Of a DNA stretch of 64,000 bases, positions 62,625 through 64,000 are shown piece by piece. The notes under the pieces were generated by a model. It did not search any database. It was not told where the DNA came from and saw only the letters and a list, made by a program, of their open reading frames with translations. Position numbers and translations under genes: made by a program. This DNA comes from Pseudidiomarina planktonica (GTDB lineage Bacteria; Pseudomonadota; Gammaproteobacteria; Enterobacterales; Alteromonadaceae): NCBI RefSeq assembly GCF_900177775.1, contig NZ_FXWH01000003.1:1-64000 (forward strand). Reading direction: 5' to 3'. Each line of letters begins with the position of its first letter. Position 1 is the stretch's first letter.

Positions 62625-62648
62625 AGAAAGCTAGACTTATAGACGTCT
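62625..62648 (+). promoter_or_regulatory. Tandem MetJ boxes upstream of metK
   Basis: Three adjacent 8-mers: AGAAAGCT (5 of 8), AGACTTAT (6 of 8) and AGACGTCT (8 of 8, the exact consensus). MetJ with S-adenosylmethionine binds such tandem met boxes and represses metK, so the operator fits its position. It lies next to the presumed -35. Confidence 0.8.
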
Positions 62649-62653
62649 AAAAC

Positions 62654-62682
62654 TGGAAAAGCCAGCGAGGCTTCGGTAGAAT
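62654..62682 (+). promoter_or_regulatory. metK promoter embedded in a hairpin loop
   Basis: -35 TGGAAA (62654-62659), a 17-base spacer and -10 TAGAAT (62677-62682), followed by a GC-rich discriminator and an ACTTTTTG start region. The -10 lies in the loop of the terminator hairpin at 62657-62707. Confidence 0.6.
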
Positions 62683-62707
62683 GCGCCGACTTTTTGCTGG
62701 CTTTTTT
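62657..62707 (+). terminator. Terminator of the alcohol dehydrogenase gene
   Basis: AAAAGCCAGC (62657-62666) pairs with GCTGGCTTTT (62696-62705), followed by further T residues. The loop is 29 bases long and holds the metK -10. Transcripts starting at that promoter lack the left arm and so escape the hairpin. Confidence 0.7.
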
Positions 62708-62781: not shown

Positions 62782-63927
62782 ATGTCACGTCATTTATTTA
62801 CTTCTGAATCGGTGTCTGAAGGGCATCCGGACAAAATAGCAGACCAAATCTCAGATGCGGTTTTAGATGCGATTCTGCAGGTGGATCCGAAAGCGCGTGT
62901 TGCCTGTGAAACTTACGTAAAAACCGGCATGGTGTTGGTTGGTGGTGAAGTATCTACTACCGCCTGGGTAGACATTGAAGATATTACCCGTAAAACCGTT
63001 CGCGAAATTGGTTACACCCATTCTGATATGGGTTTTGATGCTGATTCTTGCGCCATTTTAAATGCTATTGGTAAGCAGTCGCCTGATATAAACCAAGGTG
63101 TTGACCGTGAAAGTCCGGAAGAACAGGGCGCTGGCGATCAGGGCTTAATGTTTGGTTATGCTTCCAACGAAACCAGCGTATTAATGCCGGCACCTGTTAC
63201 TTATGCGCACCGGTTAGTGCAGCGTCAGGCTGAAGTTCGTAAAAACGGTTTACTGGAATGGCTGCGTCCTGACGCCAAAAGCCAGTTAACCTTTGTGTAT
63301 GAAAACGGCAAGCCGGTGGGTATTGATACCGTGGTGTTGTCGACTCAGCATCGCGAAGACATTAGCCTGGCTCAGTTGAAAGAAGCCGTGATGGAAGAAA
63401 TCGTAAAGCCAGTGTTACCAGCAGATTGGGTAACCCCGGAAACTCGTTTTCATATTAACCCAACCGGACGCTTTGTTATCGGCGGACCTATGGGTGATTG
63501 CGGCTTAACCGGTCGTAAAATTATCGTGGATACCTACGGTGGTATGGCTCGTCATGGTGGCGGTGCTTTTTCCGGTAAAGATCCGTCAAAAGTTGACCGT
63601 AGCGCGGCTTATGCGGCACGTTATGTGGCGAAAAATCTGGTTGCTGCCGGTTTGGCTGAGCGTTGCGAAATTCAGATTTCCTATGCCATTGGTGTGGCTG
63701 AGCCAACCTCTATCAGCATTGAAACTTTCGGTACCAGCAAACACGATGAAGTGGCGTTAATTGCGCTGGTGCGTCGCCATTTCGATTTGCGCCCTTATGG
63801 TTTAATTAAGATGTTGGACTTAGAACGCCCTATATATGGTGAGACTGCAGCCTATGGCCACTTTGGTCGTGAGCAGTTCCCATGGGAAAAAACGGACAAG
63901 GCTGAAGCCTTGAAAGCTGATATCTAA
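62782..63927 (+). CDS. metK: S-adenosylmethionine synthetase
   Basis: 381 residues, full length. It makes SAM from methionine and ATP with tripolyphosphate cleavage. It has [30 protein letters not shown], the second ATP motif [21 protein letters not shown] and the [19 protein letters not shown] phosphate loop. A ribosome site TAGGATAA sits before the ATG. MetJ boxes upstream argue for SAM feedback. Confidence 0.98.
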
Positions 63928-63928
63928 T

Positions 63929-63957
63929 TTGCTTGTAAGCCCCGAATTGTGGACAAT
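63929..63957 (+). promoter_or_regulatory. Promoter for the gene after metK
   Basis: -35 TTGCTT (63929-63934), a 17-base spacer and -10 GACAAT (63952-63957), running on into ACATTTTG. A GGGG site at 63985-63988 and ATG at 63996 may start the next gene just before the window ends; in many gammaproteobacteria this would be tkt. Confidence 0.5.
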
Positions 63958-63990
63958 ACGCGCACATTTTGTGGGCAGCAATTCGGGGTT
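63940..63990 (+). terminator. Terminator of metK with a promoter in its loop
   Basis: CCCCGAATTG (63940-63949) pairs perfectly with CAATTCGGGG (63979-63988), loop 29 bases, then TTTAAAC. The -10 of the downstream promoter lies in the loop. The U-run is only three bases long. Confidence 0.65.
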
Positions 63991-64000
63991 TAAACATGAC

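Follow-up and report, generated by a model that had tools for sequence, protein, structure and literature searches.

The 68 bases that separate metK from tkt on the same strand in Pseudidiomarina planktonica are likely an insulated promoter: a promoter-containing hairpin would silence translation of tkt from RNA that reads through from metK. The two genes would then probably be separately controllable. The window (the whole 64,000-nucleotide stretch analyzed here) closes with the first five bases of tkt. The features that bear on this reading are as follows.

62641–62648, + strand: MetJ-box-like octamer AGACGTCT upstream of metK, found once in the window.
62657–62705, + strand: comparison hairpin before metK, an inverted repeat with 10-base arms (62657–62666 and 62696–62705), a loop of 29 and TAGAAT at 62677–62682.
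62782–63927, + strand: metK, the upstream gene, coding for S-adenosylmethionine synthetase (381 aa; three S-AdoMet_synt Pfam domains).
63929–63934, + strand: −35-like hexamer TTGCTT of the predicted tkt promoter (conserved TTGC, 17-base spacer).
63940–63949, + strand: left arm of the hairpin, CCCCGAATTG, within the promoter spacer (from the inverted repeat, the fold and the species comparison).
63950–63978, + strand: loop of the hairpin, 29 bases (from the inverted repeat).
63952–63957, + strand: −10-like hexamer GACAAT in the hairpin loop (from conservation).
63958–63963, + strand: ACGCGC, a GC-rich stretch that separates the −10 from the predicted start (from conservation).
63964–63965, + strand: predicted transcription start, the seventh to eighth base after the −10 (from promoter geometry).
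63979–63988, + strand: right arm of the hairpin, CAATTCGGGG, whose GGGG (63985–63988) is the Shine-Dalgarno-like site of tkt (from the fold, the species comparison and the opening cost).
63996–64000, + strand: start of tkt, coding for transketolase (670 aa), an open reading frame that was read on the rightward contig sequence and ends beyond the window at contig position 66008.

A preliminary description made from the letters of the window had proposed a hairpin after metK with 10-base arms, a 29-base loop, a −10 in the loop and a GGGG 7 bases before an ATG, and all of these were confirmed in the sequence. Seven bases separate the GGGG from the ATG at 63996–63998, and the open reading frame at that ATG is tkt, so the next gene is close by and not far downstream. 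Farther 3′ lies a dehydrogenase gene with a Gp_dh domain, followed by open reading frames that we take to be pgk and fba. The TAA stop of metK (63925–63927) is 57 bases 5′ of the GGGG, and on general grounds this makes translational re-initiation at tkt unlikely. We propose that RNA polymerase would start tkt RNA inside the loop of the inverted repeat, using TTGCTT, a spacer of 17 bp and GACAAT, with a start near 63964. The conserved −35/−10 motif puts this predicted start 3′ of the left arm. RNA begun there would lack the left arm, and opening its GGGG would be about as cheap as opening an ordinary site. Read-through RNA from metK would carry both arms, and its stem would bury the GGGG and silence tkt translation.

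The arrangement of the two genes was compared across relatives. In 23 of the 25 metK loci from the same genus (Pseudidiomarina), tkt lies 67–91 bases 3′ of metK with the hairpin in between; of the remaining two, L019 is cut by a contig end and genome G019 carries an insertion after metK, and in the latter the hairpin before tkt is kept despite the insertion. The tandem order was found in all 19 genomes of the Idiomarina group. A scan for the left arm plus the −10 returned 32 stretches, which came from Pseudidiomarina, Idiomarina, an Idiomarinaceae bin or a gammaproteobacterial bin. A readable tkt start preceded by GGGG was present in 31 of them (L053 ended too soon), and a metK C-terminal motif lay upstream of tkt in 30, the exceptions being L062 (Pseudidiomarina sp. 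CB1) and L064, which has 114 upstream bases, is too short to show metK and was classed as tandem through its identity with L074. By coordinates, metK and tkt are divergent in all 17 genomes of a third genus, which we infer to be Aliidiomarina. The 21 loci from outside these three genera, taken from the best 30 tkt loci among 118 family genomes, all had a divergent metK, and in some genomes (e.g., G026, G028, G032 and G033) the two genes lie apart. Genome G001, which has a broken metK, has no locus in the comparison.

As a separate observation, loci L018 and L070 of G019 have an opposite-strand gene inserted directly 3′ of metK, presumably TnpB-like as recognized by eye. The last codon and stop of metK there are unlike those of the relatives, and the promoter-hairpin is intact.

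In a transketolase tree, the 43 tandem rows formed one group with 100/96 support (midpoint root, for drawing only), and G015 (L012) grouped with the window's genus. The simplest history has a single origin of the tandem order, in the ancestor shared by Pseudidiomarina and Idiomarina; the link between tandem order and stem therefore counts as one evolutionary event.

The promoter motif is conserved in all three genera. TTGC, a 17-base spacer and GA(C/G)AAT occurred in all 31 distinct tandem sequences and in all 16 that were read from the divergent genus (L138, the 17th upstream region, was missed by the start-finding pattern). The pattern was derived from the tandem sequences, so these conserved letters were partly asked for; the spacer was left free at 15–25. 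Among the tandem sequences the −10 was GAGAAT in 23 and GACAAT in eight, and it was GACAAT in all 16 divergent ones; ACGCGC followed it in 27 of 31 and 10 of 16, respectively. A further 24 loci, from other genera of the family or order, lacked the motif. Judged by consensus the hexamers are weak (TTGCTT matches at three of six positions, GACAAT at four of six), and a consensus promoter scan did not report the tkt promoter, so the support for the −10 is its conservation. The −10 region TGTGGASAATACGCG was also tried as a genome-wide box and rejected: it matched four places in its own genome with up to two mismatches, versus nine in a backwards control.

Unlike the promoter motif, the stem follows the tandem order. 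Every one of the 29 distinct tandem sequences (Pseudidiomarina and Idiomarina) had an uninterrupted helix, G-U allowed, with 8–13 Watson–Crick pairs and a varying loop, whereas the divergent genus is without the stem (4–5 pairs). The totals of 29, 31 and 33 distinct sequences used here differ because duplicates were removed over different stretches. L084, a chance match to the promoter pattern from another genus, was left out of the motif, T-run and opening-cost sets and is among the 17 divergent rows of the helix count. The divergent genus has AGGAG as its ribosome site in 15 of 16 sequences, and the other (L089) has GGGG without a stem. The left-arm part GAATTGTGG is present in four of the 16 as promoter sequence.

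The two arms change together between species. Counted free of register, the helices had a mean of 10.14 Watson–Crick pairs, compared with 8.34 when the right arms were permuted (largest 9.17; none of 1000 permutations as high). Part of Idiomarina has the left arm CCCCCTG in place of CCCCCGA and the right arm CAGGGGG in place of TCGGGGG or TTGGGGG, and the group means of 9.12 and 8.5 fell to 7.0 and 6.2 once arms were exchanged between these groups. Sequences of Pseudidiomarina with GAATTG and GAAATG arms had own-group means of 10.91 and 9.83, versus 9.39 and 8.67 after exchange; the arms of several GAAATG species match only partly. A column-wise count gave 283 paired cells and 12 double changes, both above permutation (none of 2000 as high), and no excess of extra pair types (11 vs. 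11.3 permuted). This fixed-register count misplaces the CCCCCTG group of Idiomarina by a one-base shift, and the register-free count was added for that reason; we report both. The distance from the −10 to the start varies among the tandem sequences (modeled leaders of 30–54 bases) and yet the arms are retained, consistent with an RNA stem.

In the window itself, the gap hairpin has a minimum free energy of −27.7 kcal/mol; its shuffles averaged −16.92 (SD 2.97; z = −3.63), and none of the 200 was as good. Its stem comprises 15 pairs counting G-U, of which 13 are Watson–Crick. A search of the hairpin region against Rfam found nothing above the gathering threshold (best match 22.1 bits, with 46 required). 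We also scanned 264 kb of the contig, with 225 predicted genes, for arms of at least 8 whose end lies no more than 20 bases from a start. Six cases were found versus five in a non-reversed control, or three versus two when the arms had at least four G/C. Arms near starts are as a class at chance level, and the evidence beyond chance is therefore the fold and the between-species comparison. The tkt hairpin was the only one of the six cases to combine an arm of at least four G/C with a −10-like hexamer in the loop, by a −10 pattern picked after seeing tkt. The idea that such hairpins are a general habit of the genome was dropped, since no second GC-richer arm with a −10-like hexamer occurred among these 225 genes.

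The contig also has a terminator-like hairpin (12-base arms, TTCG loop and T run) just before position 247561 (L163), 10 bases 5′ of a predicted start. This could be one more terminator next to the start of a gene, or the start, which was called by a simple rule, may be wrong.

Folding models gave the predicted cost of opening the tkt ribosome site in the two RNAs, with promoter-started RNA modeled from 63965, the eighth base after the −10. Over 33 distinct tandem sequences, the median predicted cost was 14.4 kcal/mol in read-through RNA (range 6.3–17.1) versus 4.1 in RNA from the predicted start; in the window the values were 10.7 versus 1.5. Scrambling the promoter spacer brought the tandem read-through cost down to 4.6 kcal/mol, and L016 stayed high at 10.2. 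The divergent genus had predicted costs of 3.1 and 3.0 kcal/mol for read-through and promoter-started RNA. A predicted difference of >3 kcal/mol between the two RNAs was seen in all 33 tandem sequences and in one of 16 divergent ones. The predicted probability that the ribosome site is unpaired in read-through RNA was 0.00–0.01 in all 33. In promoter-started RNA the GGGG had a median unpaired probability of 0.22 in the tandem sequences (<0.2 in 15 of 33 and >0.5 in five) versus 0.41 in the divergent genus, and the tandem cost was slightly higher (4.1 vs. 3.0 kcal/mol). The models therefore put the freed site close to an ordinary one in opening cost, short of full exposure. The preliminary description had suggested that read-through hides the ribosome site and that RNA started in the loop frees it; the covariation of the arms, the opening costs and the genus with the motif and no stem lend this computational support, with the freed site only partly open in the models.

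A serious competing explanation, to which we give somewhat less than an even chance, is that the hairpin serves chiefly as the intrinsic terminator for metK and overlaps the promoter and ribosome site of tkt for economy of space, with the hiding of that site as a side effect. Consistent with this, 31 of 37 distinct tandem gaps had no short-loop terminator besides the hairpin, and the other six had only a 5-pair stem. Short-loop terminators were found within 120 bases after metK in eight of 17 divergent-genus genomes and in four of five more distant loci. (The simple terminator scan was limited to loops of 3–8 and so could not have reported a hairpin with a 29-base loop.) In Idiomarina, 4–6 T follow the arm in all 12 distinct sequences, and the median T-score of 3.99 lies between that of the stemless divergent relatives (2.47) and that of the terminators before metK (4.69), where the terminators, 22 of 30 sequences, were picked by a pattern that required three or more T. 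T runs numbered 1–4 after the divergent-genus ribosome site (16 sequences) and 3–7 in those 22 terminators. Against a mainly terminating role, the T run in Pseudidiomarina ranges from 0 to 6 (median 4 over 21 distinct sequences), two sequences begin with C, the window's own tail is TTTAAAC with three T, and a loop of 29 is long for a terminator. In Idiomarina, where about five T come after the arm, some metK transcripts may also end at this hairpin; it may terminate weakly as well as insulate. Termination would then have a real but lesser part, least of all in this species, where the tail TTTAAAC makes a terminator role doubtful.

It is improbable that tkt has no promoter of its own here, with metK and tkt forming one operon and the stem acting as a regulated switch or as a 3′ stabilizer of metK RNA. 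The gap is short, the genes share a strand and the promoter hexamers are weak by consensus, but the fixed-spacing −35/−10 motif is kept in the divergent genus, where read-through from metK cannot reach tkt, and no Rfam family reached threshold at the hairpin. We consider it very improbable that the repeat serves as a DNA operator bound by a tkt regulator protein. The perfect 10-base inverted repeat does surround a promoter, but the arm-to-arm distance varies by ∼24 bases between species (from leader lengths and spacers), which makes this unlikely, the arms change together, and the divergent genus keeps the promoter motif with the repeat absent.

The hairpin before metK had been described as having the same design. 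The likeness holds for the geometry and fails for the ribosome site, since that hairpin holds no ribosome site of metK's. Its 3′ end is a run of six T, of which four belong to the arm; it lies 76 bases 5′ of metK, probably terminates the alcohol dehydrogenase gene upstream and contains the metK promoter. The likely −10 of metK sits in the loop or right arm, behind the MetJ-box-like octamer (62641–62705), and most of the other Pseudidiomarina loci that were read have a terminator-like stem before metK that ends in a T run, with TAAACTACG or similar at the right arm. This likely −10, TAAACT or similar, was matched in 23 of 25 same-genus loci; in the other two, the window's TAGAAT and L005's TAAACT are outside the scanned part yet visible in the sequence. 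The octamer AGACGTCT was found upstream of metK in all 25 loci; 28 of 100 shuffles of the window also held it, so the octamer alone is not telling. A metJ gene is present in this genome, and metK is probably MetJ-controlled, which would be a reason to insulate tkt. Beside metJ, on the − strand (L181, 1822–3249), lies an open reading frame that fuses two parts, which by eye we take to be argininosuccinate-lyase-like and acetyltransferase-like.

Returning to the insulated promoter, the stem may have arisen with the change from divergent to tandem metK–tkt. After that change, the old promoter spacer would have gained a C run, and the ribosome site would have become its complement. With the stem, tkt and the genes that follow would stay independent of metK, itself probably under MetJ control. 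We suggest tentatively, with the odds a little against it, that these ∼50 bases are promoter, partial terminator and translational lock at once, evolved from the old tkt promoter once metK lay in front of it: the spacer acquired its C run, AGGAG became GGGG(G) plus T, and the site itself became a hairpin arm.

A promoter in the loop with a ribosome site in the arm is a design best known from phage. IS10 is protected by fold-back inhibition, in which a fold in read-through RNA covers the transposase ribosome site and RNA made from IS10's own promoter has no partner strand. IS10 is a mobile element shielded from its neighbors, whereas metK and tkt would be two core genes made independent after a rearrangement. 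For T4 gene e (lysozyme), long upstream transcripts have the ribosome site paired within a helix and are translated poorly, a 100-fold effect; transcripts from late promoters a short distance upstream are missing the 5′ strand and are translated well. The leaders of soc, 49 and I-TevI are named beside it (PMC3014915). The mechanism that we propose for metK–tkt is the same and the two are built alike, with function here a prediction. They differ in that T4 uses phage late promoters for the timing of late genes, whereas tkt would have a host-type promoter and is a chromosomal housekeeping gene; unlike T4 gene e, metK–tkt has a T-rich tail, which may add termination. Terminators close to promoters, as in polymerase recycling, likewise place termination and start sites near each other: in E. 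coli, 85% of 371 major termination sites are reported within 1000 bp of a start, in work that concerns restart after termination and not the hiding of ribosome sites (PMC11347151). A search of open-licence papers by title or abstract start found no description of a metK–tkt element and nothing on Idiomarina with transketolase and metK; by title, the open-licence papers on Idiomarina transcription starts were unrelated.

If the insulated promoter is real, it would be a natural example of same-strand neighbors kept independent without a separate terminator, with the before and after states preserved in living genera. It would also offer a testable design, a promoter in the loop and a ribosome site in the arm, on a gene of central metabolism behind a probably MetJ-controlled gene. 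Should the reading of the ∼50 bases as promoter, partial terminator and lock be true as well, the steps by which a bacterium built an insulator between genes following a rearrangement would be traceable.
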